Source: Ananas comosus
Taxonomy: Eukaryota > Streptophyta > Magnoliopsida > Poales > Bromeliaceae
NCBI RefSeq assembly: GCF_001540865.1
Contig: NC_033637.1
Location: 7,133,134-7,197,133 of the forward strand
DNA length: 64,000 bases
Reading direction: 5' to 3'
Shown: positions 17,230 to 63,044 of the stretch, one piece after another
Numbering within the stretch: the stretch's first letter is position 1
Layout of the letters: every line of letters starts with the position of its first letter
Program-made: the position numbers and the translations under genes
Notes under the pieces: model-generated
Seen by the model: only the letters and a program-made list of their open reading frames with translations
The model's database searches: none
Told to the model about the DNA's origin: nothing

Positions 17230-17239
17230 GCATATATAC
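17230..17239 (-). promoter_or_regulatory. TATA box of M1 LTR, copy 2
   Basis: Same sequence and surroundings as the copy at 16057-16066, within the second repeat block. Confidence 0.55.
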
Positions 17240-31665: not shown

Positions 31666-31920
31666 GGGACCGGTCTCTGAAATGGAGAGACCGGTTCCCC
31701 TAAGGTCCTCACTGCGTAAACCATGATGCAACCGGTCCCCTGTGATGAGAGACCGGTTCCCGAACCATGGTGCTTCTGTCGTGCAGCGAGGGACCGGTCT
31801 CAAGTTTGAGAGACCGGTTCCCGAACGTTGGGTTTTTGGTCACGCAGAGAGGGACCGGTTCCTCACTTGAGAGACCGGTCTCTCACAGACCGGTCTCCTC
31901 GAGAGGACCGGTCTCTGAGG
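31666..31920. promoter_or_regulatory. GAGACCGGTCTC-type palindrome array in the copia U3
   Basis: About ten copies of GRGACCGGTYYC fall in 250 bp, many arranged as pairs 20-30 bp apart (GGGACCGGT... GAGAGACCGGTTCCC). Several are perfect palindromes (GAGACCGGTCTC). They end about 65 bp upstream of the TATA box. The same units occur in gypsy LTRs at 55060-55265 and 62484-62716. Confidence 0.75.
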
Positions 31921-31982
31921 ACGACACAGGTTTTTGAAAACGACTTTTTGCAATCCTAGTCTACTTCTAAGTCTTCTAAACA

Positions 31983-31990
31983 TATAAATA
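31983..31990 (+). promoter_or_regulatory. TATA box of the copia LTR
   Basis: TATAAATA lies just downstream of the palindrome array. Confidence 0.7.
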
Positions 31991-32651
31991 AGCTATGTGG
32001 GTCATCTAAAATTAAGGCTTTGAATATTTTACCAATTCCAAACCCTAGAAACTTGTTTTCTTCCCGTTTCAATGCTTCGATTTACATGATGAGTTTCTAG
32101 CAATCAACATCGGCTTGATTCTTCGTTTTTACTCGATACTTCTTACGAGAATCAAGTAGATGATTGATTAAAGGTGAACCCTCATAGCTTATGGTTTTCA
32201 AAAGTTAAATCACCACAAATCTTCAATTCTACAAGCTCCGGAAGGAGGTTCGGCGCGTGGATCTCGCGTGAAGCCGAGGATTCGGTGGACGCTTCGAGGA
32301 GTTGAGGCGTTGACGCTGCGAGGAGTTGCAGCAAGGTCGATTGGTGGATTCCTATCGATCGAGGACCGGCAAAGATCACCGTCAACGAGAAATCGGTAAA
32401 TTGAGTCGTGTGTTTTTGTCGAAATCACTTGTACTCAAGTTTTCTTAGTGGATTTTCTTTGCGTGATCGGTCCCGTGGGTTTTTCACTCCGAATTGGAGT
32501 TTTCCCACGTTAAATTCTCGGTGTGCTGTTTTAATTTCCGCTATTTTGTTTTGTTTGCATCGAGATTTTTCGAGTTTGCCGGATTTACACCTATTCACCC
32601 CCCTCTAGGTGTTACTTACCTTTTAGATCCTCGGGATCCATATCTCACAAG

Positions 32652-32663
32652 TGGTATCAGAGC
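32652..32663 (+). other. Primer-binding site of the copia element (initiator tRNA-Met)
   Basis: TGGTATCAGAGC lies 2 nt after the LTR end. Confidence 0.95.
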
Positions 32664-32681
32664 GGGTATAGGTTGTAATTC

Positions 32682-35477
32682 ATGGCTGAGGGCGGTAACA
32701 TCAATCGACCCCCGCTCTTCGATGGCACTAACTATGCTTATTGGAAAGTCCGTATGAGGGCGTTTCTTATTGCTATCGACGAGCGGGTTTGGCAAGCCAT
32801 TGAATTCGGATGGAAAAATCCTACCGAAGTTGTCGAGAATGTTACCGTGCCGAAACCTAGGAATAAATGGACGAAAGAGGAAAATGAACTATCTTCGTTC
32901 AACGGGAAAGGTATCAATGCTTTATTCAATGCTTTAAACCAAACTGAATTTTCTCGCGTCTCGGCGTGCGAAACCGCCAAAGAGATTTGGGACACTTTGC
33001 GAGTTACACACGAGGGTACAAGTTTGGTTAAGATTCAAAAATTGCAAATGCTTACTAGTAGATTTGATTCCATTCGTATGGAAGAACATGAATCTTTTAC
33101 CGAGTACTATACTCGTTTGCAAGACATTGTAAACACGTGTGCTAACTTGGGCGAGAAAATTCCCGATTCCAAAATTGTTCGAAAAATTTTGAGAACCCTT
33201 CCCGAACGATTCCGTCCTAAGGTTGCGGCTATCGAAACGGTTAAACATCCTGATGAACTCAAGGTAGAAGAACTAGTAGGTGCTCTTCAAACTTATGAAA
33301 TGACTTTTCCATCTAATTCATCTTCTTCCAAGTCTTTCTCTAAAGCCTCAGGGATGGCTCTAAAATCAACAAAAGGAGATGTTTCTTCAACCTCATCAGA
33401 TTCAGAGTCGGAGCAAAGCTTGGAGGACTTTGAAAAACAACTTGCACTTCTAACAAAGAAGTTTCGTCGGAACTTTAGAAAGAAGTTTCCTCCCAAGTCT
33501 ACTTCATCCAAGACAAACAAATCTAAAGGGGGTTCGTCTTCTTCTTCCTCGTCAAAATACAGAAAATCTGATAACTCTCAAAAGGACTCTACAAAAGAGA
33601 AGAAAAGCAGTGAAGGTCAAATTCAATGCTACAAGTGTAGGGGCTTTGGCCATATAGCATCTGACTGTCCTAATACAAAGTCATTGAAGAAGAAAGCTAT
33701 GCAAGCAGTGACTTGGGACGACTCCTCATCTGACGATTCTACTTCGAGTGAAGAGGATGTGAATGCCACAGCTCTAATTGCACACGATTCAACTTTCATG
33801 TGTTTAGCATCTGCTGACTTGACCTCTACTACATCTATACAAGAGAAATCATCTTCGGAGGACTCATCGGATGGAGAATCGGACGAAGATGACATGGTAG
33901 CAGCATATCAACAATTGGTTGTTGAATCGAAGAAGATGGCTAAACATAACAAGAGACTGCGGCGAAGTCTGCATGAGTTGGAACAAGAAAATTCAAAATT
34001 GGTCTCGTTAACAAAGGATCTAGAGCAAGAAAGAGACGGGTTGACCAAGGCTTACAACTCTTTGCTTGAGAAGTGTTCGTTACTTGAAAAAGAAAAGGAG
34101 ACTGAAGTGGAGAACATCAATTATCTTACTAAGCAAAATTCAGAAGTTAGAGAAGCAAATATGGAATTCACCAAGATGATCATTCAACTGAAGTCGGATT
34201 TGAACCAATTTTCATCTGGCTCGAGCAAACTAGACAAGATGCTTGGACTTGGTCAAACAAATAAACTTGGACTTGGTTATGAACGGACCTATGTTGACCA
34301 AGCAACAAAGAAAGATGGCGGACATTCATCAACTGCCGTTCCTAAGCTCTATGGTAAATTCGTCCCTCCTCAAAATAATCTGACTAACAAAGCTTGTCAT
34401 ATTTGTGGTGCTTTAGGACACATAAAGAAGTTCTGCAAACAAAAGGGAAAGAGCTCATCAACACCCTTGAATCACAGAACATTACTTTCGAAGAATGACT
34501 TTAAATCAAGAGGGAAGTCAACTTGGACTCCAAAGAAGGTTGATGCTAAGAAGAGACAAATATGGACACCAAACACTCCGGGGTCAAAGGCAAAACACGC
34601 ATGGAAATCAAAGAAGGAGGATGTGAAGAAGAATTCAATTCAAATCGTCGACAAGCCACGATCAACAAGAGCAAGCAAACTCACACAGCCCAAAACACGT
34701 AAGGTTTGGGTGCGCAAAGGTGAACTCTTCCCATGCCTAGTTATTCACACTTCGCTTCATGCTTACGATAACTCATCATGGTATCTGGATAGCGGTTGTT
34801 CCCGTCATATGACCGGAGATAAAAATTGGTTTACTTCCTTGACCAAAATCTCCAGAGGACTTGTTGTTTTTGGGGACGGTCGATCGTCAAAAATTATTGG
34901 AAAAGGAACAGTGACTATCTCAGATGGCCCTACATTGAACGATGTTTTTTATGTTGAGGGGCTCAAATCTAATCTCGTAAGCATAAGCCAACTGTGTGAT
35001 GATGGGTATTCTGTGAATTTTTCGGGTAAAGAATGCCATGTGACTCGTGATGACAATCTGTTCTTAAAGGGCATTAGATCTATGAATAATTGTTATGTAG
35101 TTCCTAGTTCGGCCACTGAACATTATAACCTAGCGTCATTAGAAACTGAAACTTTATGGCATGAACGACTAGGCCACATCAACTTTAAGGAGCTATCTAA
35201 GATAACCAAGAAGGAGGTAGTTAGAGGTGTACCTAAGATTGATTTTAAAGAGAACACTGTGTGTGGGGGTTGCCAATTAGGGAAACAAACTAGATCCACA
35301 CATAAGAACTTGAACCACTTAGGGACAACTAAACCTCTAGAGTTACTTCACATGGACTTGATGGGACTATCTAGGATTCAAAGTTTGGGTGAAAACGTTA
35401 TATTTTGCTTATTGTTGATGATTTTACTCACTATGTATGGAGTGCTTTCTTACGAGAAAAAGCTGATACTTTTAATT
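32682..35477 (+). pseudogene. gag-pol: Copia gag, protease and start of integrase
   Basis: One frame begins MAEGGNINRPPLFDGTNYAY, the usual gag start of this clade. In order it has a gag core (residues ~1-210), a Ser/Lys-rich linker, a zinc knuckle CYKCRGFGHIASDC (~residue 315), an acidic Ser-rich stretch, a coiled coil (~410-510), and a second knuckle CHICGALGHIKKFC (~570). Then come protease with WYLDSGCSRHM (~700), the pre-integrase zinc region (WHERLGHIN ... CGGCQLGK, ~825-870) and the integrase start (LLHMDLMG). A frame change near 35390 breaks integrase: the next catalytic stretch, VDDFTHYVWSAF, reads in another frame. The N at 35478 follows. The gag part alone is fully open. Confidence 0.9.
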
Positions 35478-35478
35478 N

Positions 35479-36371
35479 TTTTGTGTTTCAAATGGTATAA
35501 AACATGAATTCTCGGCTCCTTATACACCCGAACAAAATGGAGTGTAGAACACAAAAATCGGGTTGTACAAGAAATGGCACGTGTTATGCTTCATAGTAAG
35601 AAAATTGCTTTACATTTTTGGGCCGAAACAGTTAACACGACCGTCTATGTTATCAATCGGATTTATGTGCGTCCGGGTACCTTGAATACTCCGTATGAAC
35701 TTTGGCTTGGTAGGAAACCTAATATTAAATACTTTCGTGTCTTAGGGAGTAAATGTTTTATCCTTCAGGATCGTGAAAATCTTGAAAAATTTGACTCTCG
35801 AAGTGACGAGGGGATCTTTCTTGGTTATTCTACTACAAGTTGTGCTTATCGTGCGTACAATTTACGATCTAAGACGGTGATAGAATCTATCAATATAAAA
35901 GTAGATGAAGTTTCGTCTGCAAGTTCTTCTGTGAATGGTTCTTCTAATTCTTTGGTGAATGATGATGATAATGACTCTCCATTTGTATTGCCTGTGAATG
36001 ATGATGTTTCTGCTTTTGATAATTCCATTGCATCTTCTGAAAATATTGCATCAAATGAGTCATCTGAGCCTCAAAGTATCTCATCTGAAATACCTAATAC
36101 ATCATCTGAGACTGCACTCCTGTTAGAGTCAAGAGATCATCCGTTATCGAATGTTATTGGAGATCCAAGTGTTGGTGTGCGAACTAGAAGTCAACTTCAA
36201 TGTGAATTTGCATATTATGTTTCTCTAATTGAGCCAAAGAATATTGACGAAGCTCTTCTGGGTGAATATTGGATAAATGTCATGCAAGAAAAACTTGGGC
36301 AATTCATCCGCAATGATGTATGGGAATTAGTGCCACGCCCTGAGCAACAAAATGTTATTGGTACTAAATAG
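35479..36371 (+). pseudogene. Copia integrase, C-terminal part
   Basis: Resumes after the N within the integrase core (GIKHEFSAPYTPEQNG), with an indel in the following codons. From 35574 an open frame runs through the core end and the integrase C-terminal domain (LGRKPNIKYFRVLGSKCFI ... GIFLGYS). A Ser/Asn/Glu-rich linker follows. The second catalytic aspartate region of integrase is missing at the N. The frame ends at TAG 36369-36371, where the conserved tryptophan codon at the start of RT is expected. Confidence 0.85.
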
Positions 36372-37760
36372 ATTTTTAAAAATAAGAAAAATAAGGATGG
36401 TACAATTGTTCGAAACAAAGCTAGACTTGTTGCTCAAGGTTATTCACAAATTGAAGGGATTGATTTTGATGAAACCTTCGCCCCGGTTGCCCGTCTCGAA
36501 TCTATTCGTATTTTGTTCGCGATAGCTTGTCATTTGAAAATTACTCTTTATCAAATGGATGTAAAAAGTGCATTTCTGAATGGTTTTCTAAAAGAGGAAG
36601 TTTATGTGGAACAACCAAAAGGTTTTGTAGATTCTAAATTTCCAAATCATATTTTTCGTCTTAAGAAAGCACTTTATGGACTCGAACAAGCATCGCGAGC
36701 ATGGTATGAACGATTAACAAAATATCTTTTAGAAAAGAGATACAACTGAGGGGAAGCGGATAGAACTTTTTTTGTAAAACACAATAAAAATGATTTTGTT
36801 GTCGCACAAATCTATGTGGATGACATTGTCTTCGGGGCAACTAAAGATACAGTTGCCACTGAATTTGCTAAGTTGATGACTAGTGAGTTCGAGATGTCTA
36901 TGATGGGTGAGCTCTCATATTTCCTTAGTCTTCAAGTTAAACAATCAAATGAAGGAATTCATTTGTCTCAAACCAAGTATGCAAAGGAATTGGTTAAAAA
37001 ATTTGGTTTGGATGGAGCAAAGAACTTTGATACACCGATGGGAACAAGTAATAAAGGACTTGGAGTGAATGTTGAAGGACAAAGTGTGGATGAGAAACAG
37101 TACAGGAGCATAATCGGCAGTTTACTGTATTTGACCGCGAGTAGACCGGATATTGCTTTTAGTGTGGGAATTTGTGCTCGCTATCAAGCTAATCCAAAAG
37201 AAGTTCATTTGAAAGCGGTTAAGAGAATCATACGATATGTTAAATGTACAACCGCTTATGGTCTATGGTATCCTATAGGGACATCTTTGGACTTAATCGG
37301 ATACTCGGATGCTGACTGGGCTGGTTCTGCAGATGATCGGAAAAGCACTAGTGGAGCTTGTTTTTACCTTGGACATTGTCTTGTTGCGTGGCATAGTAAA
37401 AAACAAAATTGTATTGCACTCTCCACTGCTGAGGCGGAATACATTGCGGCCGGTAGTTGCTCTACACAATTACTATGGATGAAAAGCTTATTGAGTGATT
37501 ATCGGATCTCCTCCACCACTTTTACAATTCTATGCGACAACACGAGTGCCATAAATATTTCAAAAAACCATGTTTTACATTCACGAACAAAGCATATTGA
37601 ACTAAGATATCACCTTTTAAGAGAATTGGTTGAATCAACTATTCTTCAACTTGAATATGTTTCAACTGAAAATCAACTTGCGGATATTTTAACTAAGCCT
37701 TTGGATCAAAAACGTTTTCTACATTTAAGAAAGGCTATTGGTATGAATCCTTCAAACTAG
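36372..37760 (+). pseudogene. Copia reverse transcriptase and RNase H
   Basis: Same frame as the upstream part after the TAG at 36369. RT motifs are present: [22 protein letters not shown] with the first catalytic Asp, [13 protein letters not shown], and the YVDDI box near 36810. A TGA at 36747-36749 falls between these motifs. From 36816 to 37760 the frame is open and covers the rest of RT and RNase H (GYSDADWAGS, ALSTAEAEYIA, CDNTSAI), ending DILTKPL...MNPSN. Both stops are consistent with single transitions. Confidence 0.92.
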
Positions 37761-39432
37761 ATACATTCTATTGGGGCATAGATCATGTGCATGTTGCATT
37801 TTGTTTCTGTGCATATTTTTGTTTGGTTTTTCCTGATTATTCTTGAGAGATGATTGAATTTCATGAATGTTGTCGCTGTTTTTGGGAGATAAATTGGTTT
37901 TTGTTAGCTCTATCATATGACTTTAATTGTTTCATATTATGTTTTGATTGATCACTGTCATTGTTATTCTCTATTGTCATAATTTTTGAACGATCAAATC
38001 GTTGAAATTCTGTTTAGTATTTTGAATTAAATTCAACACCTCATGTTTCGAACTTTGAACGTTGCAATTGTTTATTTGATTATTAGGTGTGAGATGAATA
38101 ACTCTTTCTCTATTTTTGAAATTGCAATAATATTTTTGATTTGAGGGTTGCACTAATTTAGGGGGAGTCTTTCGGACTATGGTTATGGAAATATCTTAAA
38201 TTCAAAAGATATGGAAAGAGTTACATCCCTGCTGGGAGTGTGAAAACTACCACCACATGAAGGAAAGAGCTACCACCCCGGTTGTCCGGTCAGTGTGTGC
38301 AGCTACCACATGATGATCAATATATCTCTATGAGTTAACAGCCAATAAAGAATAAATAAATATGAGATGTTGTGGAGATGGTAAAATTCTAATACTATGT
38401 TTAATACATCTCCTAGGCGATATAAGGTGGTTTGTTAAAAGATGCTCAAAGAGTCACTCCTATCTCGAATTATGTGCATAACTCAAATTGAGAATATTCT
38501 TTTAATTTCATGATTATGTGATTTATTTATTCAATTTCTTAACAAATATGATGATAAAATGATACAATTAATCCTTAGATCTTGCATGATGTGTGGAATT
38601 TTATTTGATACTTATCAAGAATTTTATTTGATTTTCGGATCAACAATATTTGACGAATTGAATATCTTTGAGATTGTTTTTCAAAATTTATTTATGAAAT
38701 TTTATTGGAAGTCTTTGGGGATGGATATTTTGTATTTTTGATGTTGGATATGTTGAGGATATTACTTAAAATTTTTGAAAATTTTGGACGAAAAATAAAT
38801 TTTTTGGTTTTGGCTCTGGGACCGGTCCCAGACTTGGAGAGACCGGTCCCTCCGCCCAGACCGATATAAGGGTTTTGCGATCCGTTTCTTCTCACTTTAC
38901 CAACTTCGTTCAAATTTCTCTCCAGAGCCTCTGATATCCCTAGGGTGCTTTTGCTTCCATTCTTCATCAATTTACACTTGATTTTGATATGATTCTCGGA
39001 TTTTATTTCGTTGTTGTCTTATAATCCGAATTTATGCTTTATTTTCAATTTTTTGGGGATTTGATCTTATTATGTTGTTATATCTCTTCATTTTTGCCCT
39101 GATCTTACCTCTAGACATGTTAGTTAGCATTTTCATGCATTACTCCATACTTTGTTACAATTGTTTGGGTGTTTTTGCTATGTTTTCCTCATCTAAACCT
39201 ATTTTTTTTTAATTTTTTCGAAAATGGGACTTTCTTCATTTTTGATGCTTGATTTGTCCATGATTTTCATGGTTATGTGGCCCTAGAATTATCTAGTACA
39301 TTACATATAAATTTTCTAAAGTTTTTTTTTAATCACAAATCAATTATTTTTATGTTCAATATGTATAAATTATTGTGTTTAACAGGGGTTTCTTCGAAAA
39401 TGTACTCGTGGCTACTTGTTCTTTTGGTTCTT
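37761..39432 (+). other. Spacer between copia pol and the extra ORF
   Basis: AT-rich and mostly non-coding. Two items stand out. One is the purine run AGGGGGAG at 38160-38167, which looks like a polypurine tract but lies 1.8 kb before the 3' LTR. The other is an ACCGGT pair followed by a TATA-like sequence at 38818-38880. An acceptor-like TTGTGTTTAACAG lies near 39373-39385, about 50 bp before the ATG of the extra ORF. Confidence 0.6.
38818..38880 (+). promoter_or_regulatory. Candidate internal promoter: ACCGGT pair plus GATATAAG
   Basis: GGGACCGGTCCC and GAGACCGGTCCC lie 24 bp apart, followed by CAGACCGATATAAG. The spacing and order imitate the array-plus-TATA arrangement of the copia LTR. 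It sits 550 bp upstream of the extra ORF and could drive it. This is inferred from resemblance only. Confidence 0.4.
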
Positions 39433-39925
39433 ATGGCTGGCGGTGGTCGTGGAAGTAAGCGACAGCGCTCAAAAGCTAAAAGGCCAATTAAGTATCAACC
39501 GGAGGATGAAGAGAGCGAATATGCTCCTGGCGATGAACCTGAGGAGGACGAGCCGGATTGGGAGACTTTTGTTCCCGAGGTATTGGCTAAGGATAAGGAT
39601 ACTGGGAAAGGCAAAGGAAAAGGAAAAGCCGTGGATAAAGGCAAAGGAAAGGCAACTGAGCGTCCCAGTCGTCGTAAGTCCGGGGGTGTTGAAATTCGAG
39701 AACCGGGCTCTGAACCACCACGTCACAGTCTACAGGATGTTCCATCTAATCGACGGTCGATGTACTCGTCGAAACACTGCATTGGTGAGCGAGATGTTGG
39801 GGTGGCCAGTATCATTAGTTGTGTGCCGGGTTTTCAGGATTTATTTGAACAGGGGAATCTTCATCAGATTTGTGATTTCCCGGAGCAAACCGGTTATTGT
39901 TTGGAGTTGATCAGAGAATTTTACA
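39433..39925 (+). pseudogene. Third ORF of the copia element, truncated at an N
   Basis: The start is set at the ATG giving MAGGGRGSKRQRSKAKR. An in-frame upstream ATG would add a hydrophobic MYSWLLVLLVL stretch. The protein has a basic N-terminus, an acidic Glu/Asp-rich stretch, and a Gly-Lys repeat (GKGKGKGKAVDKGKGK). It then has a folded-looking part ending in ICDFPEQ ... LIREFY, which resembles the start of the plant-transposon-protein domain found after pol in SIRE-like elements. The frame is cut at N 39926, where LTR sequence follows directly. Its function is unknown. In this clade it is sometimes called env-like. Confidence 0.6.
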
Positions 39926-39926
39926 N

Positions 39927-39991
39927 TTACACCTATTCACCCCCCTCTAGGTGTTATTTACCTTTTAGATCCTCGGGATCCATATTTAACA
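39927..39991 (+). mobile_element. Copia 3' LTR, last 65 bp only
   Basis: Matches 32585-32649 with few changes, ends TTTAACA, and is followed by the target duplication ACACA. The rest of the 3' LTR, the polypurine tract and the end of the third ORF are missing at N 39926. Confidence 0.9.
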
Positions 39992-39996
39992 ACACA

Positions 39997-42041
39997 TTGT
40001 AACTTGATCACTTTCAATCAAATACAAAGCTTGTACATTTACTTTACATTCATTCTTCCAATTTACGTAACCATCTCCCAAATGAATTAATTACATTTCA
40101 TATACATTTTACATTCATCGACATAATAGATGAAATATACATAGGGTGGCTCTATACACATCGGTAGTCCGCTACCTAGAGCACGATAATCATGCCACGA
40201 GCCATGATCACCCCGCTTGCGCTAGAACCTGCATGGTTAGTGGGATGAGAACTACAACAAAGTTTCTAGTGGGTTCGGCAACAGACCTCGCCGACTTACC
40301 TACTAGGTCTATTTAGGCATATGTATTTCAAGAAAGGAAGATAGCCAACCAACTAATGCTACTACTAATACAATGCCTACAAGAAAACTGGTCAATAAAC
40401 AGATAATCATATGTATGATAAATGCATGCATGTTTTTTCCATAACTTTAACTTGGCTTTTACCCAATCTTACCGGTTAACCTTGTTAACCCCAATAACTC
40501 ATAACCCGAAATTCCTTAATAACGGGAGACTCGAACCTCTCTAGGGACCGTCCTCTGGGGGGATTTTACCACGCCCATTGGTGACCAACTCCGGAGCGCA
40601 CCGCCCGAGGGGGAGCTATCTCCCTCAAGCCAAGACTTATCGTGAGTATCAATCAAATCCTCAACTTGAGAATACATAGCCACTAGTCACAATGCCACTG
40701 TCATAATAGGTTTCTGCCTATTTATTCGTGCCACTTTCTAGTTCACTCTTGCCATAATGCCACTATGCCACTATATCAATGATAGGTCTCTACCTTATCA
40801 TTTATGTGCCATAATGCCATAATTGGTTAAACCATGTTTAACAATTCATCTCTCAATGCCAATCTTGTCTCTATTGTCAATGTCACCTTCGTTTACTATT
40901 GTCAAGTCCAATTCTCGCATTCATACAATCGTTAGGGTTCTACCATACATGTCCATTATGGTTCTATCATTCTCTATATTCAACTACGTTAGAAGCATAT
41001 AAATGAAGTCAAACCAAGGTTCACATGTAAACTACCCTGTCATGCATGAATGATACTATACATAGATATGTTCAACAAAGGCGAAATAGATATAAAGGGG
41101 AATCCAACGATTCCGGTGTGCACCCCCCACCATTTTATAGTTACAAGGAACCCACGGTTTAATTCTTGGAATTTTTAAGCTCTTATCCTGCATGTTGTGG
41201 CTATCTGTACGAAAAATGATGTTTTGGTCAATATCTTCGCGTACACTCGTCGGATTGTCAAACCGAGCGCATCAACGCGTTCGTTATACGCCCAATTAGA
41301 TTTCTAAGAGGTCAATTTACATCGGAAACGGCCTAGGGCAAAAGCCCCAAAATTCATGCCCTGACAATGCCATTTAGGGTTTCTTCCTAGATTGATCTTG
41401 TTCCTAAGCGAATGATAGCTTAGAATCAACTAGGAAGCATTCTAATACCATTTTCATACCCTTTGAACCATTCCTAGGGCATCTAGTGTGAACCCTAATA
41501 ATCCACCATGGGAGCACCTTGAGAAAACCATGGATTTCATGGGTTCAAGGTCTCAAGAGGGTTTCTAAGCTTGCAAGGAGGTCAAAACACTAATTCTTGG
41601 GGTATAAATCCAAACCCTAGAACTCTACTTGTAAGAAGACTCACCTTAGCCCAAGCTCTATCAAGTCCTCCTTGTGGGAGAGCTTCAAGAACCACCAAAA
41701 CCTCCAAAATCTCCTTCTCCAAGCTTTCTCCCAAGCTCCTCCCTTGCCCTAGATGAGTTTTCTAGAGAGAGAAATAGAGAAATATGAGGGAGAGGGTGTG
41801 TGTGTGTGTGGCTGTGAAGGGGAGAAGAGATGGGGTATATATGGTGTGCTACAATTGCAACTAGGCCCCCCAAACTATTATAATTGCAGCAGACTTAATC
41901 TTGCTGTCGGGTCCAAAGTGTACCGGTACACTTTGGGCTGTCACTGGTTACACGATCGCGTATGACCAAACCAGAGAGCAGTTTTCTCAGTTCGCACCAT
42001 TTGTACCGGTACACTTTCAATTTGTACCGGTACACTTTCAG
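39997..42041 (-). mobile_element. S1 solo LTR, middle part
   Basis: Continues the minus LTR after the copia insertion. The stretch 40230-40330 (TGAGAACTACAACAAAGTTT and after) matches 42505-42600 of the Tekay LTR. On the minus strand a TATA-like ATATATA lies at 41836-41842. The GTGTACCGGTACAC palindromes at about 41915, 42002 and 42025 are upstream of it in that direction. The piece ends with TTCAG (42037-42041), the target duplicated by the Tekay insertion. Confidence 0.85.
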
Positions 42042-44598
42042 TGTCACGCCCCGAGCCCGATCCTTTTGGCCGGTTCGAGTGCGTCGAACAGACGTTGAAC
42101 GGACAGAGCCTCCCCTGTCCGCCCAAGGCTCAACAACAGGTACAAATAGAGTATAGAAATTGCATAAGCGGAAGCATACACAATGGCTTGCACGAGGGCA
42201 AGCAATAGCCAAGAGTGAAGGTAAACAACTACACTTATGAACGGATTACAATCTTTGCATCATTTCTTTTCTTTTACATTACAGGATCTCAAAATATCAT
42301 TCTCGCATTTAAATATAAGGATCTTTTACATCATACATGTTCTTTCCTTTAACAACTAAATCAACGAAGTACAAAAGATGATATAATAAAAGGGGGTATG
42401 CAACTAAAGTAAATAAGAATCTCGGGCGGTCTCTACCTAGGGCGCGATGCCCTTACCGCGATCGTCCGCCGGCTCGTTGGGTCCCGGCTCTGTGGAAATA
42501 GGGGTGTGAGAACTACAACAAAGTTTTCGGTGGGTTCAGCAACCAACCACGCCGACTATCCCACTAGATCTAATCAGGCATAATAGAATAAAGGAAAGTA
42601 AGTAACCAGCTAGCAACTGCAGCTAATATGCCTGAACAATATAAAATGATATGCACAATGTAATACTCATGATGAATGCAAGGTCATAGTGCCAATACCC
42701 AATCTCTTCGCTAACCCGTAGGTTTCGCCCTCAACAAACTCACAAACTCAAAATCTGAATAATCGGGGAGATACTCGCTACAACCCGATGGGACCGTCCT
42801 CTGGGGAGATACTCGCTACAACCCAGTGATGTCGACTCCGGAGCACATCGCTCGAGGGAGAGCTACCACAACCGCAAGCAAGGGCTAAAAGTGAGTACGA
42901 TCAATCCTACATTTGAGTATTCTAAGTTCAATCCATTCCTTAACTTTAAGGAAGACCATACTCAAATGACCCTTACACTAAGGTTGAAATGTCATATTAC
43001 CTCAATCATTCTTTCCTTTGCATTCTTTACTATCACTAATGTCATATACACTATCAAGTTCTTGTACTCATGCCACACTTGTTCTCTAAGTACTAGATTC
43101 TTGTCCTCATGCCAAATGTCACACTTATTTACTAAGGGTTCTAGACTTGTCGATGTTACTTGCTAGATCTATGTCAAAGTGTCACTTTTCGTTTACTAAC
43201 CCTTCTAGGTTCTTGTCACAATTATGCATACATAGGGATCATCTTTCTCACATTCTTACAAACATTTAACATGCATTTGAATTTACATTATGCTATAAAA
43301 AGCTCACAATTAACCTTATTATGCAAGATGCTCAAAAATGCACATATGCTCAAAATATGACACTTAGACATAAAGAGATTTTCGATGTTCTTGGAATGCA
43401 CCACCCACCTTAGATGGTAGCAAAGATGCTACGGTGAATTTCTTGGAATTTTTTGAAGCCCTAGTCCGCGTGCTGCGGCTATCTGTATGGAAAATGACAT
43501 TTTTGTCTATAACTTTGCGTACATTCGTCGGATTGCCGAACCGAGCGTTCCAACGCGTTTAAAATACCCTCAATTAGGTTTTTACATGATCAAAATAGAT
43601 CAAAATCCATCTTGGGCAAAACCCCTCTTTGGGATGCCCTAACATATCATTTTTGCATTTCTCCGAGGTTGATCTCATTCCTAAGCAAAAGATAGCTTAG
43701 ATTCACTTGGGAAGCTCTCTAATAAGGTTTCTAAGCTTTTAGAACCAACCCTAGGGCATCTACTTTGAGCCCTAGTGATCCACCATGAGAGTTCTTCAAG
43801 AAAACCATGTTTTTTATGGAGTCATGGTCTTTAGAGGATCTCTAGGTTAATTAGAGGATCAAAACTCTAAATTCCAAGGTTTAAAACCAAACCCTAGACT
43901 CTCTTGTGCAATAAACTCACCTTGGCCACGAGCTCACAAAGGTCCACCTTGTTGGAGAGCCACCAAAGCCTTCAAACCCACCGAAATCTCCTCTCCAAGC
44001 TTCTTCTCCACTTTCTCCTTGCCCTAGACCAAGCTTTCTAGAGAGAGAAAGAGAGGAAAATGAGAGGAAAAGAGAGGAGGGGTGTGTGCTGCTGTGAGGA
44101 GAGGGCTAGGGTCAAATAACATATTGTGACAATTGCATTTAGGCCATTCAACTTTCTATTCTGCAGCAGACTTATCCCTGCTGCCAGAGGATTCGCGTAC
44201 CGGTACACGGGTTGGTATCATTGGTACATGACCTGCGCAGAAGCAAACCCGAAAGCAAACTCTCTCGGTTTCGCAGGGTGTGTACCGGTACACGGGGTCC
44301 CGTACCGGTACACCACCCAGGCTGCCCAAACCCAAGAGCAGCCTGTGCTCGGGTCGCTTGCTGTACCGGTACAACCACCATGGTGTACCGGTACACAATG
44401 CTCCAGAATGCTGTTTTGGCTTCGACTCGACTCTACTTCGCGTCGTTCGATGCGAAAACCATTCCAACACTTCTTTAACTCATTTTTGCCATTCCAAACC
44501 TGCTGGAATGCAAAAATCACTCACCAATCCATTTCTCTCGATACTTTAACCAATTTGATTAAAGTTCGATTATCGTTTTCGAGTTTCGTTATGTTACA
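42042..44598 (-). mobile_element. Tekay 3' LTR
   Basis: On the plus strand it runs from TGTCACGCCCCGAG to CGTTATGTTACA. Five perfect GTACCGGTAC palindromes lie at 44197-44394, near the LTR's own 5' end. The block 42745-42870 contains a repeated GGGGAGATACTCGCTACAAC phrase also seen at 50390-50440. There is no protein-coding gene. Frames in the palindrome region are shadows. Confidence 0.93.
44197..44394. promoter_or_regulatory. GTACCGGTAC palindromes, Tekay 3' LTR
   Basis: Copies at 44197, 44282, 44302, 44363 and 44385, plus a decayed one near 44213. The paired LTR has the same array at 51802-51998. Confidence 0.65.
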
Positions 44599-44612
44599 TT
44601 CTCCACCCCTTA
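44599..44612 (-). other. Polypurine tract of the Tekay element
   Basis: AAGGGGTGGAGAA on the minus strand, directly before the 3' LTR start. Confidence 0.92.
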
Positions 44613-44667
44613 AATTTAGTTTCGTCCGCGAAACTAGCTTAATTTAAGCCCGAACTCGACTCGTACC

Positions 44668-49629: not shown

Positions 49630-49640
49630 CTCTGATACCA
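49630..49640 (-). other. Primer-binding site of the Tekay element (initiator tRNA-Met)
   Basis: On the minus strand it reads TGGTATCAGAG, 7 nt after the 5' LTR end. Confidence 0.93.
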
Positions 49641-49647
49641 TCTTATC

Positions 49648-52203
49648 TATCACGGCCCGAGCCCGATCCTTTTGGCCTATTCGAGTGCGTCGAACAGACG
49701 CCGAACGGACAGAGCCTTCCCTGTCTGCCCAAGGCTCAACAACAGGTACAGATAGAGTATAGAAATTGTATAAACGGAAGCATACACAATGGCTTGCACG
49801 GGGGCAAGCAATAGCCAAGAGTGAAAGTAAACAACTACACTTATGAACGGATACAATCTTTGCATCATTTCTTTTCTTTTACATCACAGGATCTCAAAAT
49901 ATCATTCTCGCATTTAAATATAAGGATCCTTTACATCATACATGTTCTTTCCTTTAACAATTAAATCATCGAAGTACAAAAGATGATATAATAAAAGGGG
50001 GTATGCAACTAGAGTAAATAAGCATCTCGGGCGGTCTCTACCTAGGGCGCGATGCCCTTACCGCGATCGTCCGCTGGCTCGCTGGGTCCCGACTCTGTGG
50101 AAATAGGGGTGTGAGAACTACAACAAAGTTTCCGGTCGGTTCGGCAACCAACCACGCCGACTATCCCACTAGGTCTAATCAGGCATAATAGAATAAAGAA
50201 AAGTAAGTAACCAGCTAGCAAATGCAGCTAATATGCCTGAACAATATAAAATGATATGCACAATGTAATGCTCATAATGAATGCAAGGTCATAGTGCAAA
50301 TACCCAATCTCTTGGCTAACCCGTCGGTTTCGCCCTCAACAAACTCACAAACTCAAAATCCCAATAATCGGGGAGATACTCGTTACAACCCGATGGGACC
50401 GTCCTCTGGGGAGATACTCGCTACAACCCAGTGATGTCGACTCCGGAGCACATCGCCCGAGGGAGAGCTACCACAATCTCGAGCAAGGACTAAAAGTGAG
50501 TACGATCAATCCTACATTTGAGGATTCTAAGTTCAATCCATTCCTTAACTTTAATGACGACCATGCTCAAATGACCCTTACACTAAGGTTGAAATGTCAT
50601 ATTACCTCAATCATTCTTTCCTTTGCATTCTTTACTATCACTAATGTCATATACACTATCAAGTTCTTGTACTCATACCACACTTGTTCTCTAAGTGCTA
50701 GATTCTTGTCCTCATGCCAAATGCCACACTTGTTTACTAAGGGTTCTAGACTCGTCGATGTCACTTGCTAGATCTATGTCAAAATGTCACTTTTCGTTTA
50801 CTAACCCTTCTAGGTTCTTGTCACAATCATGCATACATAGGGATCATCATTCTCACATTCTTACAAACATTTAACATGCATTTGAATTTACATTAGGCTA
50901 TAAAAAACTAACAATTAACCCTATTATGCAAGATGCTCAAAAATGCACATATGCTCAAAATATGACACTTAGACATAAAGAGATTTTCCATATCCTTGGA
51001 ATGCACCACCCACCTTAGATGGTAGCAAGGATGCTACGGTGAATTTCTTGGAATTTTTTTGAAGCCCTAGTCCGCGTGCTGCGGCTATCTGTACAGAAAA
51101 TGACGTTTTTGTAAATAACTTTGCGTACATTCATCGGATTGCCGAACCGAGCATTCCAACGCGTTTAAAATACCCTCAATTAGGTTTCTACATGATCAAA
51201 ATAGATCAAAACCCATCTTGGGCAAAACCCCTCTTTGGGATGCCCTAACATATCACTTTTGCATTTCTCCGAGATTGATCTCATTCCTAAGCAAAAGATA
51301 GCTTAGATTCACTTGGAAAGCTCTCTAATAAGGTTTCTAAGCTTTTAGAACCATCCCTAGGGCATCTACTTTGAGCCCTAGTGATCCACCATGAGAGTTC
51401 TTTAAGAAAACCATGTTTTTCATGGAGTCATGGTCTTTAGAGGATCTCTAGGTTAATTAGAGGATCAAAACTGTAATCCCAAGGTTTAAAACCAAACCCT
51501 AGACTCTCTTGTGCAATAAACTCACCTTGGCCACGAGCTCACAAAGGTCCACCTTGTTGGAGAGCCACCAAAGCCTTCAAACCCACCGAAATCTCCTCTC
51601 CAAGCTTCTTCTCCACTTTCTCCTTGCCCTAGACCAAGCTTTCTAGAGAGAGAAAGGGAGGAAAATGAGAGGGAAAGAGAGGAGGGGTGTGTGCTGCTGT
51701 GAGGAGAGGGCTAGGGTCAAATAACATATTGTGACAATTGCATTTAGGCCCTTCAACTTTCTATTCTGCAGCAGACTTATCCCTGCTGCCAGAGGCTTCG
51801 CGTACCGGTACACGGGTTGGTATCACCGGTACACGACCTGCGCAGAAGCAAACCTGAGAGCAAACTCTCTCGGTTTTGCAAGTTGTGTACCGGTACACGA
51901 GGTCCCGCACCGGTACACCACCCAGGCTGCCCAAACCCGAGAGCAGCCTATGCTCGGGTCGCTTGCTGTACCGGTACAACCACCACGGTGTACCGGTACA
52001 CAATGCTCCAGAAAGCTGTTTTGGCTTCGACTTGACTCTACTTCGCATCGTTCGATGCGAAAACCATTCCAACACTTCTTTAACTCATTTTTGCCCTTCC
52101 AAACCTGCTGGAATGCAAAAATCACTCACCAATCCATTTCTCTCGATACTTTAACCGATTTGATTAAAGTTCGATTATCGTTTTCGAGTTTCGTTATGTT
52201 ACA
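49648..52203 (-). mobile_element. Tekay 5' LTR
   Basis: Aligns end to end with the 3' LTR. Its downstream end is decayed (TATCACGG where the partner has TGTCACGC). Palindromes lie at 51802-51998. It is followed by TTCAG (52204-52208). Confidence 0.93.
51802..51998. promoter_or_regulatory. ACCGGT palindromes, Tekay 5' LTR
   Basis: Six ACCGGTAC-containing sites are spaced as in the partner LTR. Two are partly decayed in one LTR but not the other (CATTGGTACATG at 44218 versus CACCGGTACACG near 51824). Confidence 0.65.
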
Positions 52204-52208
52204 TTCAG

Positions 52209-52473
52209 CTCAGCTCTACTCCTCGGCCTGCTTGCTGTACCGGTACAACGATCAACGTTGTACCGGTACACTTTGCTCCAGAATGCTGTTGGCTTCGACT
52301 CGACTATACTTCGCACCGGTCGATGCTACAATCTTTCTAACTCTTCTAAATTCATGTCTAACCCTTCCAACATTGTTGGAAAGCTAATTGAAACCTGTCC
52401 CACCATTTCTCTTGGCACTTTAACTAATTTGGGTAAAGTTCGATAATCGCTATCGAGTTTTCGATATGTTACA
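52209..52473 (-). mobile_element. S1 solo LTR, last part
   Basis: The U3 end of S1, with two more ACCGGTAC palindromes at about 52237 and 52260. It ends GATATGTTACA at 52473 and is followed by CTCGG. Confidence 0.85.
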
Positions 52474-52478
52474 CTCGG

Positions 52479-52969: not shown

Positions 52970-55059
52970 TGTCACGCCCCGGGACCCAGCATAGGCTCGC
53001 CCGGTGCGTGCCTAGACCCACCATATGCCTGCACATATAAGGCATCTACCACAAAAGTAATAAATAAACCTGTGATACAAGTATCTAGAGATATCAGAGC
53101 GAGTATATAACTAAGTTCTATCAACAAGTAGAATCAGAAGAAACTAAAAACTAAAGTAAGAAGTAAAATAATACAACATAGATCTCCAGATACAAATAAT
53201 GGGTGGTCTCAACAAAATAGTACAAGTCCCTCAACCTCTCCGAAAAGAAACAAAAGAGAGGTGGACCACCTATTGACAAGTCCCTTGCTAGCTAGCCCGA
53301 GGCGACACCTTTCCCGCTATCCCGAGCCTCTCCCGGCGTGGAAGGCTCTGAAAGAAAAATATGAAGCAGGGGGCGTGAGAACTATAATTTATAGTTCCCA
53401 ATGGGCAATTACTGACCTGAGTAAAATGCACCACTAGGCCCAAAACATGAGCAGATATGAACTGAAAATAACTGTGGAAATAAAAGCATATAATGCAGTG
53501 CTATTCTACTATGCCACAATACACATGCTGTCAACATGGAGTACAACTACTCTATCATGATCCAATATGCCAAAACATGTCAGTATGCTCTATTATGGCA
53601 ACCAAGTATGCTAAAATGTGATAAGCAGTACTAGCAGGTATACTACATGTCCAAGTGTCCAATACATACCTAGTATGCACTATCATGGCAACCGAGTATA
53701 TTAAATGTCCCAATATCCACTGAATCCAACTACTATATCCTATCAAGTAGTGATTGCCATTTGTTGTCTAATGGTCTGGTTCCATCTCATTTAGGACCTA
53801 CACATGTGTAGTCCAGCTTGTGCCGCCTAGCTACCTGTGGTAGCTCCAACAATCCCCCTTGAGGAATGAGTCTATCCCACACGGCCCTACAGGCACCTCG
53901 CCGCCTAGTTGCCCGTGGTAGCTCATCATCCTACGTTGAGAATGAGGCTGTCCCACGCGACCCTACAGGCGTCTCAATCCCGCACGCGTGAATTGCGTCG
54001 GAAAGGCCAACTCTGGAGTGTCGGCTTGTAGGGAGCGACTCTCACAAGCATATGCGAATGAGCACAAATGGCAAGTAAGCAAAGTCATCATCTCACAGAC
54101 CCGATCATTATGTCTCTAACAAGGAAATACTCACTAGCAACCCCAAGGGTCTAGTCTAATGTCTCAAGTGAAGGTTTACTAAGTTCACTATGTCCAATGC
54201 CCCTTTTGGCATTATATCTCACTATGTCCAAAACTATTCCAACACTAATGCCACTTTATGACATTAGGTCTACCAAGTCTATTCATATACTAAGTTCAAT
54301 GCCGTTTTATGACATTAGCTAACTAAGTCTATACATATCCCAAACTCAATGCTGCTTTATGACATTAGCTGACTATAACATGCATCACTCAATGCTAATG
54401 TCCCTTTATGACATTAAATGATCAACTATGCCAAGCATACGTTCTAGGTCTAAGAGTGTATCATACATGTCATATGCACTACATGCAACATGATCCCAAC
54501 CAAGTGTAAAAATGCTAACCATATGCAGGGTTCAAACACGAATAGTTCTTTACTACATAGAGGTCCGATGTATATTACACATAGCATGTGCATATTAAGC
54601 ATTCTAAAATCCTCAAATATTCTATCTAGCATGAATATGTATGCATTTTTATTTTACGATAAGTAAAAACCATCATAGGGATGATTTATCCCATTTTGGT
54701 GAGGCCAAACCCACTAAGTCTCCTCGAACCCTTCGTTCGCGCCGACGAAGGTGCCTTCGACTCTCCTAGCACCCTAAAGGTTAGGCTAAATGGATTAGAA
54801 GAATCGAACGAACAACGAATAGGTTAAACATTAACCAACTCAACAAAAGGGTCAAAACTTACCTATAGTGTAGCAACCCATTCCATGCTCCAAATGGAAG
54901 CTAGTGTAGTACACTGGACCTGTGCAAATTGTGAGGTTCGAGTGATTGGATGTGTTCCGAGCTTTTTCATACTTGGTGGAGGGTCGTAGAATGTTTTCCG
55001 ACCTAAAAAGTTTGAAAATCTGAGTTCTGGACGAGTCCTGAGAGTTTTTACTCTCGGGG

Positions 55060-55265
55060 ACGGGTTCCTGGCTGGGAGTGACTGGTCCCCCGGGAACAGT
55101 ATTGCGGCAGCCTTAAGGCAACCGGTTCCTGGCGGATGAGACCGGTCCCCGAGCGCGTCCACACGGGGAGAGACCGGTCGTATGCGGGGAGAGACCGGTT
55201 CCCGAACGTTGGATTTTTGGGGCAGGCCGAGAGACCGGTCCCAGGTCGGGGAGACCGGTCCCTCA
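55060..55265. promoter_or_regulatory. GAGACCGGTCCC palindrome array in the S2 U3
   Basis: About seven copies of RGACCGGTYCC in pairs. 55189-55220 is identical, except for one base, to 31808-31839 in the copia LTR. The matching stretch extends well beyond the palindrome itself. Confidence 0.75.
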
Positions 55266-55407
55266 GTCCGAAAACTGCCCAGTTTGGGCTGTTGCAATAT
55301 TGAGAAATTGAGGGGCCTCTTTGGATTTTGTTGCATTTGATGGCCTATATGGCTATTTCACCTTCTCCCTTTTCTCATTTCTCTTTCTCTTATTCTCCCA
55401 ACACCCT

Positions 55408-55466
55408 AGAGAGAAGAAGGAGAAGAAGGAAGAGAAGAAGAAGAAGGAGAAGAAGAGGAGGAGGAT
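55408..55466 (+). repeat. GAAGAAGGA purine-only tract
   Basis: About 57 purines without interruption, built on GAAGAAG and AGGAGG. It lies in the leader part of the LTR, downstream of the array. A similar interrupted tract occurs at 62870-62922 at the same relative place. It opens a Lys/Arg-rich frame by composition only. Confidence 0.85.
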
Positions 55467-58142
55467 CTAGCATGAGGACTTGGAGCATTTTCCTCTCTTT
55501 CTTTTCCCACCTTGTTGGTGCTTGGAGGCTTGGTCTTGGAGCTTGTAAGAGAGGAGATCTTCACCCTTGGAGCTTGGATTGGAGCTTCTAAGGAGGTTAG
55601 TTGCTCATTTTTTCCCTCTAGACCATGTTTTGTTGGTTTTTAGGAGATGAAACCCTAGAATGAGGTTTTAGGGTTGATTTTGGGCATTTTGATTTTAGGG
55701 CTTTTGGAGCTCAATTTCTTGGATTAGAACCTTTCTCTAGGTTCCGTTGGAAGGGCCCTATCTTTCTTTTGAAGCTTGAAAAGAGATTTTTCTCTATAGG
55801 TGAGATTTTGGCCCTTTTGCTTGATAGGTTAATGTTTGAGCTAGTAGTTGTTCGTTTACTTCTTGTAGCTCACTTTTTGATGCTTTTAGGGTGCTAGGAG
55901 ATTAGTGGACATCTTCGTTGGAGCAAACGAAGGGTTGCGCGAAGTTCGGTGGGTTTGACCTAGCCTAGCATATGAGAAATTTTCATATCCTATGTTTTAT
56001 GCTTTGTAGAGTAAAAATTCATGCATTTTCATGATAAATGTAATTATTGTGAATTTTAGGATGCTTAACATGCTTATGTTATGTGTGATGATTTTCGGAC
56101 CTCTATGTAGTAGAGAACTAGCATGTGTAACTTGCACATAATTGGCATCCTATTGAGACTTGGAATCATAATTCCTATTGTGAAAATGAGCATTACTTGC
56201 ATGCATTTAAAGCTATTCCTACTTGAGACTTAAAGGATCTTAGTAAGCCATAAAGAGGCTCGGAGACTTGTTCTACTTGTGAATAATTAGGCTAATGTCA
56301 TAAAGGGGCATTGAGCTTGGATTAAATCAGAACCTAGTACTAATGTCATGAATGGAACATAAATTATGAAACGTGTTAACTTATAACAAGCTTAAGTGCC
56401 ATAAAGAGGCACTAAGCATAGTGAGTGTTGGAACATCACTTTGAGACATAGAACTAGATCTTTGAGATGCTAGTGACTTTTACCATGTTAGAGACATGAT
56501 GATTGGGTATTTGAGACGTTGACTATGCTTGCTTGCCATTTGTGCTCATTCGCACATGCTTGTGAGGGTCGCTCCCTACAAGCCGGCACTCCGGAGTTGG
56601 CCTACGCGACTTATACTCGCTCGTGCGGTATCGAGAAACCTACGGGGTCGGGAGGCATAGACTCATTCCTAGAGTGAGAATGCTGGAGCTACCACCGACA
56701 CTTAGGTGGCACAAACTGGACTACATTTATGTAGGTCCTAGAACATGATTAAACAATGACATTTAATCGGGAGATAACAATCACTACCAGATAGGATTAG
56801 TAGTTGGATTACTTTGATATGCTTGTAGCGTAGTGTTGAGACATGTTGTATACTTAATAATTTGCCGGTTGCATCTTAGTATACTTGGTTGCCATGATAG
56901 AGCATAATCATCATTTATTGTTAGAACAGATCATGTTATCTATTTGCTTGCCACGTTGGGACATAGTAGACATGCAGGGGGTATACCACATCTTGATAGA
57001 ATATATGTTCAATACATTGACATCTTATGGTTTCTGGCATAGTAAATTTAGCAAACAATACTTGCTCTTACATTTACTGTTTATTATTATTATTGTTGCT
57101 TATCGTGCTTACCCTTTTCTTTTGGGGCCTAGTGGTGCATTGAGCTGAGGTCAGTAATTGCCCACTGGGAACTATAAATTATAGTTCTCACACTCTCTTT
57201 TTCTTGATGTTATTTCAGAGCCTTCCACGCTGGGAGAGGCTAGGGACCGCGGAAAGGGTATCGCCTCGAGTTAGCTTGGCTTCGAGGGACGCGTTGATAG
57301 GTGGTCTACCTCTCGTTGTTTTTTTTTTGGAGAGGTTGAGAGTTGTACCAGTGTAATAGAGACCACCCATTTTATGTACTTTTGAGATGGTTATTGTAGA
57401 ACTTTATGTTTCCTCTTTATTATTTAGTTTGTTCCAACTTCTCTTATCATAGATTATAGATGTGTACTTGCTCTGATATCTCTAGTTGTAAATCATCTCT
57501 TGCTTTATTTCCGCTGTTGTTGTAGACGCCTTATATGTGTAGACATATGGCGGGTCTGGGCACGCTACCGGGAGGGCCTCTGCCGGTCCCGGGGCGTGAC
57601 AGCTAGAACCCTTCCAATCCAACCTAGGGGAAGGTTCTAAACCAACCAATTAAGCTCCATAAGTCCTAGGTCAAAAATCCCCAAATCAAACCCTAATTTC
57701 ACAAATCTAGGGTTTCATTTCATGAACCAACAAAATCACGAATCAAATAAGGTAAATAAGCCACTAACCTCTTTAGAAGCTTTAAACCAAGCTAGAATCC
57801 AGCTAGGGTTAGAAACCCTTCCTCTACCAAGCTCCAAACACGAGCTCACGGCTTCTCCAATGGTGGGAATTGCACCAAGAAGCAAAAGAGGGCAAAAAGG
57901 AGATGGTTAATCCTCAAAATCCAAGAAAAATGGGAAGAAATACAAAGGGGAGGAAAAGAGAGCTCCCAACATGTTCTTCCCACTGTTTCCCATCTCAGGG
58001 AAGCTCTAAGGGCGTGAGGGATATTTGTAGTGTTGCTACAATTGCAAAAACACCCTCCAAACCCGAGCAGACTGAAATCTGCATTGTGTACCGGTACACT
58101 GAAAAGTGTACCGGTACAAACTCAGCTAGACAGCAAACCTGA

Positions 58143-61497: not shown

Positions 61498-61504
61498 GGT
61501 AAGA

Positions 61505-61516
61505 TGGTATCAGAGC
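61505..61516 (+). other. Primer-binding site of G3 (initiator tRNA-Met)
   Basis: TGGTATCAGAGC lies 7 nt after the LTR end. The following leader matches the G1 leader (8718-9060). Confidence 0.93.
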
Positions 61517-61866
61517 ATAAAAAGAACATAAAAAGAATAATAGAAAATGGTTTAGTTGGACCTAGGAGATCCTAGGATAGTAAACCATAGGAGATTAAGG
61601 CTCGTGAGAGACGAGGACTTGTTTCTTTTGGCGAAAGGTTAATTGATTGGGTTATGTCACAAACCTCTAAAACGGATGTTAGAGGTAGACTCAAGGTGAG
61701 GTTTATTCTCAACAGAGGGTGTTCATGTTGGGTGCACACAACATGAAACCGCGTAATGAGAATAGACGCCTTTGCGTGACTTTCGCCCGATTTGAGTTGG
61801 TATTAAGTGTTTCGTGTTCGACCTAGAAGGTCGAGGATTAATAAGGTTGTCGCATTTTAGGAAGCG

Positions 61867-62005
61867 ATAGTAACGCGTAGGCGATCTTCTTTTAGATCGG
61901 CGCGAGATGGGCCAAGTGGTGTCCCTGGGCAATTTGAGGCGAGCGGAGACTTGGAACTTCGCGAGTTTTGGCGGCCTTTGTGACCTTTGAGAAATTAACA
62001 GAATC
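61867..62005 (+). pseudogene. gag: G3 gag remnant with lost start and internal deletion
   Basis: Aligns with the beginning of G1 gag (9077 on), but the start codon is ATA. After about 100 bp the sequence jumps from the region equivalent to 9175 to that equivalent to 9418 (TTTGGCGGCCTT...GACCTT). It stops being alignable at about 62005. Nothing functional remains. Confidence 0.8.
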
Positions 62006-62307
62006 CTCGTCGTGTTAGATCACTTTTGGTCAAATTGACCAAAGTGCGTCGAGAGAAGTAGTTGGACAAAGTCCAATTGACATTCCAATAATGTTGGAAG
62101 GGTTAGAATTGAGTTCTAAAAGAGTTGGAATAGTTTTAGCGTTGCTTGGCGTGAATTGGAGTCGAAGCGATACAAAACTGAAATTCTGGAATATGTGTTA
62201 CCAGTTTAACACCAGGGGTGTACTGGTACAGTATGGTTGTAACGAAGTGAATTCCCGAGAGCCGAGAGTTGGACTTCGTCCGGGATCGGCTAGTTATCGA
62301 GTGGGTA
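62006..62307 (+). mobile_element. Gypsy LTR start fragment
   Basis: About 300 bp aligning with the first 250-300 bp of the G1 LTR: TTGGTCAAATTGACC, then AACATTCC-like and GGTTAG phrases, then a decayed palindrome near 62195-62225. It ends where a second LTR start follows at 62308. Confidence 0.65.
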
Positions 62308-63044
62308 TGTAATATACCGAAATTTCGGTAACCAAGTATCGAACCTTGGTCAAATTGACCAAAGAGCGAGGTTGGTACGCTTTGGAAAGGCCGAAGGCGT
62401 CAAATAATGCAAAAGTGCATTACTGGGGATCTTCGAGAGCCTTGGAAATGAAAATCTGCAAACTGCAGGTTTTCTGTTCTCGGAGACCGGTCCCTGTGGG
62501 GAGAGACCGGTCCCCGAACGCGCAGGCAGCAGGAGGAGAGAAAAATCGGCTAAGTCCTTGGTGGACAGCTCTCGGAGACCGGTCCCTGCTGGAGAGACCG
62601 GTCCCTGAGAGACCGGTCCCCCAAAGAGAGATACCGGATGCATCGGGCGTGAGCTCTGCTGACTGCGGGGAGAAGCTCTCGGAGACCGGTCCCTCGTCGA
62701 GCAGACCGGTCCCCGAACCCGAGAGTGGCCCAGTGAGGGCAATGTAAAAGAATAAAAGTTGAGGGGCTTGTTTGCACTTATGCAACATGTGGGGCTATGT
62801 GAGGGGTATGAGAGCTCTTTTCTCTTATTTCTCACCTACACACCCTCTCATATCTCTCTTTCTCTCTCTAGAAGACAAGAAGAGGAAGAAGAAAGAAAAG
62901 GAAAGAAAGAGAAGGAGAATGAGGTCTACCTCATTTTCTTCATCTTCTCCTTGGTTGGAGCTTCTTGGAGAGGTAAGCTTCTAAGCTCTCTCTCATGGTG
63001 GATTTCTAGAGATAGATTTGATTGCTCTAGAAATAAAGTTTTGT
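62308..63044 (+). mobile_element. Second LTR start fragment with ACCGGT array
   Basis: Starts TGTAATATACCGAAATTTCGG and includes the array 62484-62716 and a purine-rich tract near 62870. It runs to GATTTCTAGAGATAG near 63010 and then switches to internal non-coding sequence at about 63045. The switch suggests a deletion or template jump between LTR and interior. Confidence 0.65.
62484..62716. promoter_or_regulatory. GAGACCGGTCCC palindrome array, third LTR
   Basis: Seven copies of AGACCGGTCCC, in pairs such as GAGACCGGTCCCTGTGGGG followed by GAGACCGGTCCCCG. Layout as in S2 and the copia LTR. Confidence 0.75.

Follow-up and report, generated by a model that had tools for sequence, protein, structure and literature searches.

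Sireviruses, which belong to Ty1/copia, carry in their LTRs short palindromes ahead of the TATA box, the RM boxes, which were called Sirevirus-specific and for which a common binding factor was not found, according to the portions of the description drawn on here (Bousios et al. 2010, PMC2829016). By that account, RM boxes number at least eight per LTR and lie in its upper half, before TATA, and their sequence varies by family with a CGG-CCG signature. They resemble in these traits the palindromic arrays that we analysed in a 64-kb window of pineapple DNA (the window being the whole stretch under analysis), and their CGGTC..GACCG and CGGTA..TACCG forms agree with the pineapple dialects in the two flank bases (PMC2829016). 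Nevertheless, the halves of RM boxes point outward (CGGTC-n-GACCG), whereas those of the window arrays overlap as ACCGGT; neither fixed pairing nor helical phase is reported in those portions of the paper (PMC2829016); and boxes that are called Sirevirus-specific there are shared by gypsy LTRs in the window.

The target arrays of VANC in VANDAL elements also consist of short motifs in non-coding element DNA, which have changed together within an array and are common to an unrelated element (PMC5735166, PMC10398659). However, VANDALs are DNA transposons that themselves encode the known binder, and their motifs have one orientation, with no palindromic twins described in the relevant parts of these papers (PMC5735166, PMC10398659). 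LacI-family operators, e.g. TGAAACCGGTTTCA of PtxS, have an ACCGGT core as well, with specificity residing in the flanks (PMC5902321). A bacterial twin of GAGACCGGTCTC shares both the core and the spacing: among the matches listed (at least 117 loci, L003-L119, mostly from Rhizobiales), 99 of 119 pairs are 21-22 bp apart. A LacI-family gene adjoins the twin in five of the seven loci scanned, a transporter frame alone being given for the other two, and genes for family-3 solute-binding proteins also lie beside twins in the loci scanned. The Rhizobiales twin is likely a twin operator, and since LacI-family genes lie beside it, it is plausible that dimers recognise this grammar in those bacteria. 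These operators are bacterial, and we take the resemblance as a convergence of grammar rather than a relationship; a bacterial source of the arrays was rejected on that reading of the prokaryote loci. A viral source was rejected as well, as twins of the GAG dialect occur in viral contigs at two loci only, both with the same coding repeat, and those of the TGT dialect at none. The two viral contigs (L001, 7979-8011; L002, 26-58) have in common a short, seemingly coding repeat with GAGACCGGTCTC. Lastly, the Su(Hw) array of Drosophila gypsy likewise places repeated protein sites in a retrotransposon control region, but it belongs to a single element family, represents an insulator in the untranslated region and is not made of palindromic twins.

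The preliminary description of the pineapple locus had reported arrays of GAGACCGGTCYC in one copia and two gypsy LTRs. We found them at 31666-31915, 55138-55262 (with an extra core at 55121) and 62483-62713, and GAGACCGGTCYC is matched 56 times when both strands and at most two mismatches are allowed, far above the mean of 4.85 in 100 shuffles, none of which reached 56. Our analyses added a fourth array (38818-38850), a second dialect, a two-turn spacing and the parallel with known Sirevirus boxes. GAGACCGGTCYC is one flank dialect of a common ACCGGT core and is replaced with TGTACCGGTACA in other gypsy LTRs of the window. There are thus two main dialects, GRG-ACCGGT-YYC and TGT-ACCGGT-ACA, and a third, roughly RGT-ACCGGT-AYY, was seen in another locus (L145). 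In the whole window, ACCGGT is the most over-represented 6-base palindrome, with 62 occurrences versus 9.4 by a dinucleotide expectation; a higher-order expectation gives 39.2, an estimate that itself contains the excess. Twelve arrays hold 54 of the 62 cores, and the remaining eight are about the number expected by chance. Erosion of the sites by methyl-CpG decay was considered and rejected: ACTGGT and ACCAGT are at 0.56 and 0.55 of expectation in the window, and because they are not over-represented we make no claim of abundant decayed sites. In several pairs of the GAG dialect the second site is followed by CCCGAACG or a near-match (31690-31839, 55141-55220, 62506-62725), a possible extension of the box common to copia and gypsy LTRs. 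A tandem repeat with a 69-bp unit and 93% matches is present at 26276-26435.

The copia array (31666-31915, plus strand) comprises 10 cores in the GRG/CYC dialect, the first eight of which form four pairs at 20-21 bp. By position and number it is of the RM-box kind, with a different half-site order. The LTR closes with a Sirevirus-type junction (32648-32663, +) in which LTR end, spacer and primer-binding site read CA/AGTGG/TATCAGAGC, the expected form being CA/ATTGG (or AGTGG) followed by TATCAGAGC. A CCCCCC stretch at 32598 is a candidate for the C-rich integrase signal that Sireviruses have near the LTR end. The 10 cores compare with the at least eight palindromic boxes that Sireviruses have upstream of TATA. 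The polypurine tract AGGGGGAG, which in Sireviruses is multiple with AT/TG after the last copy, occurs once within 37701-39300, at 38160, with no AT/TG next to it. Downstream of the LTR, an interrupted coding region (32679-37760, +) comprises gag, zinc knuckle, gag-pre-integrase, SH3-like and partial RT (RVT_2) domains in broken frames. The copia element looks like a Sirevirus. A second copia-type LTR, which ends near 39992, harbours a core pair 21 bp apart (38818-38850, +). It resembles the 31-kb LTR nowhere but in the array and the final 66 bp (95%). The two copia-type LTRs (31394-39992) are therefore not a twin pair from a single insertion, and the element appears to be recombinant or composite.

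The ACCGGT core is not confined to Sireviruses, as several gypsy LTRs of the window carry it. Gypsy element A (42044-52206, minus strand) has LTRs that are 96% identical (42044-44601 and 49650-52206), arrays at 44196-44395 and 51801-52000, and gag-pol frames. Its pol domains follow the Ty3-type order, with RVT_1 and RT_RNaseH at 45973-49329 and SH3_Tf2-1 and a weak rve at 44668-45735; a C-terminal Chromo match (E 5e-5) scores 23.5 bits, below the curated cut-off of 25.1. Three further cores (52236-52323, -) belong to a partial duplicate of the start of the element A LTR. Arrays of the TGT/ACA dialect are found in LTR B (5685-5801, +; cores at 5688, 5772 and 5793, and a decayed one at 5710), with a twin copy at 12018-12134; in the 19-kb LTR, a relative of the 55-kb LTR (19515-19652, +; four cores); and in the 42-kb LTR (41919-42034, -; three cores). 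Another gypsy LTR, a relative of the 19-kb LTR, holds a TGT/ACA pair 20 bp apart (58087-58118, -). The 55-kb LTR array (55057-55262, +) has six perfect cores (55121-55254) and two decayed ones (55060 and 55081), and the 62-kb array (62483-62713, +) has seven cores of the GAG/CCC dialect in an LTR related to the 5-kb one. A tandem duplication of ~1.18 kb with 94% identity (15466-17819) lies within the sequence that interrupts the second LTR of element B.

Cores in the window pair at 20-21 bp, i.e. two helical turns, and the 101 core pairs at most 130 bp apart include none at 24-31, 36-39, 42-51, 54-59 or 65-71 bp. The 13 long gaps of the window, counted after dropping the LTR-twin arrays at 12021 and 44199, favour a period of 10.5 bp (R=0.85, Rayleigh p ~7e-5). 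R is still 0.85 at 10.5 bp when the decayed cores at 5710, 55060 and 55081 are added, and none of 20,000 random sets had a value as high. These three come from 17 decayed candidates listed in the window, five of them at most 130 bp from a perfect core; those at 12043 (in an LTR twin) and 52393 (off phase) were omitted. When 52393 is added too, R is 0.73 (3/20,000), or 0.68 for distinct gaps (54/20,000). Short gaps of the window alone single out no period, off-phase gaps of 15, 18, 34 and 76 bp occur, and the gaps are not independent because the LTRs share ancestry. Among the matches listed outside the window, R is 0.67 for 54 gaps and 0.58 for 24 distinct ones in the TGT dialect, and 0.45 for 54 gaps and 0.41 for 28 distinct ones in the GAG dialect. 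The phase preference thus extends beyond the window, but it is weaker for the GAG dialect.

The arrays had been described as always lying upstream of a TATA box or a leader region. The leader half of this statement stands, since the arrays precede the leader region; in contrast, a strict TATA[AT]A, sought up to 130 bp downstream of the array in nine window LTRs, was present in three. These are the 31-kb copia LTR (31983-31988, +, 76 bp past the last core), LTR B (TATAAA at 5879, 86 bp) and the 42-kb LTR (TATATA, 86 bp). Another genomic copy of the copia LTR (L124) also has a strict TATA 76 bp past the array, and the 38-kb LTR has a looser TATAAG 23 bp past it. The strict pattern was not found within 130 bp downstream in the 19-, 52-, 55-, 58- and 62-kb LTRs.

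Across the genome (382 Mb in 3128 contigs), GAGACCGGTCYC occurs 10,220 and 10,124 times on the two strands, versus 214 and 236 for its backwards control, and TGTACCGGTACA 17,162 times versus 384. ACCGGT twins at 20-21 bp number 19,774 versus 397, so that TGTACCGGTACA sites and twins exceed the backwards control 45-50 times. Twenty stretches of 10 kb, hand-chosen at round coordinates, contain 28 cores, with three arrays accounting for 15, and ACCGGT is outside the ten most enriched palindromes there. A search with the integrase piece gave an Ananas hit at 72% among the best 120 of 7989 matches. Other genomic copies resembling the 55-kb LTR (L120), the copia LTR (L124) and the 62-kb LTR (L122 and L125) carry arrays too; all were retrieved with the motif, so that no share of copies follows. 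Among the matches listed on one contig, 96 plus-strand rows gave 86 distinct twins with 81 different mid-spacers. The base adjoining the core agrees between both sites in 72 of these 86 twins, against a shuffle mean of 36.8 and a maximum of 53. Compared with within-class shuffles, the mirror identity of their outer flanks is not raised at positions 3-4 and is reduced at positions 2, 5 and 6. With outer flanks no more complementary than chance would give, the twins are better described as two separate sites than as one hairpin.

Copia and gypsy LTRs have nothing clear in common outside the arrays. The 32-base block at 31808-31839 (copia) agrees with that at 55189-55220 (gypsy) at 31 positions, and the block includes 18 bases beyond the palindrome, with one mismatch. 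In the 20 bases after the 12-mer, copia and the 55-kb gypsy array agree at 17, a value never reached when the copia flanks were shuffled 20,000 times. After masking the 12-mers, only pieces of 18 bases (E 0.07) and 21 bases (E 0.6) are left. In 33 comparisons between copia and gypsy LTRs, made for start, promoter and body segments, z never exceeded 2.7; two promoter pairs (19-kb/38-kb and 58-kb/31-kb) beat all 100 shuffles despite z values of at most 2.7. The earlier statement that these LTRs have no common ancestry at this level holds only as an absence of detectable similarity.

Among the gypsy LTRs, the 55-kb one (54951-57602) is a mosaic. It matches the 19-kb LTR in start and body (z 6.7 and 27), and its promoter matches the 62-kb LTR (z 19 with and 8.8 without the leader; 0/300 shuffles) but not the 19-kb LTR (z 1.7; 29/300 shuffles). 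Its array is of the GAG dialect, whereas that of the 19-kb LTR is TGT. The simplest reading of these sequences would be a promoter exchange together with a dialect switch, with either dialect possibly ancestral. The 62-kb LTR matches LTR B at its start (z 10.8) and weakly in its body (z 2.7). In pairs of LTRs with 70-75% identity beyond the sites, cores are conserved in 3/3, 2/3, 3/6 and 2/2 cases (3/6, 2/3, 3/3 and 2/2 when counted from the other LTR), compared with 12-31% for other aligned hexamers; seen from LTR A, three of six cores are not kept in LTR B.

The occurrence of the same palindrome in two unrelated kinds of retrotransposons suggests that both may be read by one family of DNA-binding proteins. 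The explanation that we favour, and regard as reasonably probable from sequence comparisons, is that the arrays are promoter-proximal control sequences of the LTRs, with putative sites for a family of dimeric proteins. Each 12-bp palindrome with its ACCGGT core would be the site of a symmetric, presumably dimeric protein, possibly from the host. Two dimers would occupy the same face of the DNA, separated by two helical turns, with more pairs added in phase. The TGT/ACA, GRG/CYC and RGT/AYY dialects would most simply represent the preferences of different members of that family, which both superfamilies would use, most likely for switching on LTR transcription rather than for repressing it. Arrays may grow by local duplication, recombine from one LTR lineage into another and, once inserted, decay. 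We know of no TCP, ARF, EIL, MYB or ERF plant factor that would seem to fit both dialects.

Several other explanations were weighed against this one. That copia and gypsy arrays arose separately and converged on one host factor, without exchange of DNA, is a serious contender to which we give somewhat less than an even chance, and as to function it is compatible with the favoured explanation. It agrees with the lack of clear copia-gypsy similarity outside the arrays and with the independent appearance of the same twin in bacteria, and Sireviruses of many plants have their own palindromic boxes (PMC2829016, in the portions considered). The 31 common bases out of 32, including those beyond the palindrome, and the 17/20 flank match argue against it. 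Along with the mosaic LTR, the 31/32 identity supports some exchange between families, as had been proposed. The proposal of a shared regulatory module is also supported in so far as a shared promoter-proximal module is present in LTRs that are unrelated by the 33 comparisons. The alternative then put forward, a self-spreading palindrome, taken here together with a satellite able to enter LTRs on its own, would account for the high copy number and the presence in unrelated elements; with nearly as many mid-spacers as twins, no constant unit, dialects that agree within twins, and no insertion footprint noticed in a non-systematic inspection, we consider it highly improbable.

Silencing is another unlikely possibility, in which the palindromes form hairpin RNA or draw siRNA-guided methylation and the conflict between host and element shapes the arrays. 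In five of six array stretches, RNA folding is clearly stronger than in shuffles (z -3.1 to -6.1; -1.6 for the sixth), and maize Sirevirus LTR palindromes are reportedly siRNA hotspots. Nevertheless, good folding is expected of any tandem palindromes, the flanks of the 86 twins show no stem-like covariation, and helical phase has no reason in a hairpin or siRNA model. The hairpin as a selected feature was set aside, though retained as a rival: the arrays fold well, yet their flanks do not covary. Less likely still, a transposon-encoded anti-silencing protein might bind the arrays, like VANC of Arabidopsis VANDAL elements, whose motifs are short, tandem, family-specific by a base or two and common to the unrelated AT9TSD1 (PMC5735166). 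However, these motifs are not reported as palindromic or phased in the parts of that work considered (PMC5735166), six frames that overlap or adjoin the pineapple arrays match nothing in Pfam at E up to 0.1, and the domains seen in element A are those of gag-pol alone.

Returning to a dimeric protein family as the reader of the arrays, a bolder version would be that this one family controls the promoters of both superfamilies through tens of thousands of phased twins, and that elements repeatedly switch the dialect of a whole array, racing diverging paralogues, partly by cassette swaps, even across superfamilies. We regard it as speculative and, taken as a whole, rather doubtful. In the literature searched we found no earlier description of gypsy arrays, two-turn twins or dialect agreement; as far as that literature goes, the sharing of the boxes with gypsy, the two-turn twin grammar, and dialect agreement and switching are new. 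If our explanation is true, many retrotransposon promoters of this genome would respond to a single protein family that one DNA probe could retrieve, and the dialects would offer a natural series for testing whether elements follow a host regulator or evade it. The mosaic LTR would suggest that promoters travel as cassettes. The palindromic boxes of Sireviruses would then extend to Ty3/gypsy and gain a testable grammar.
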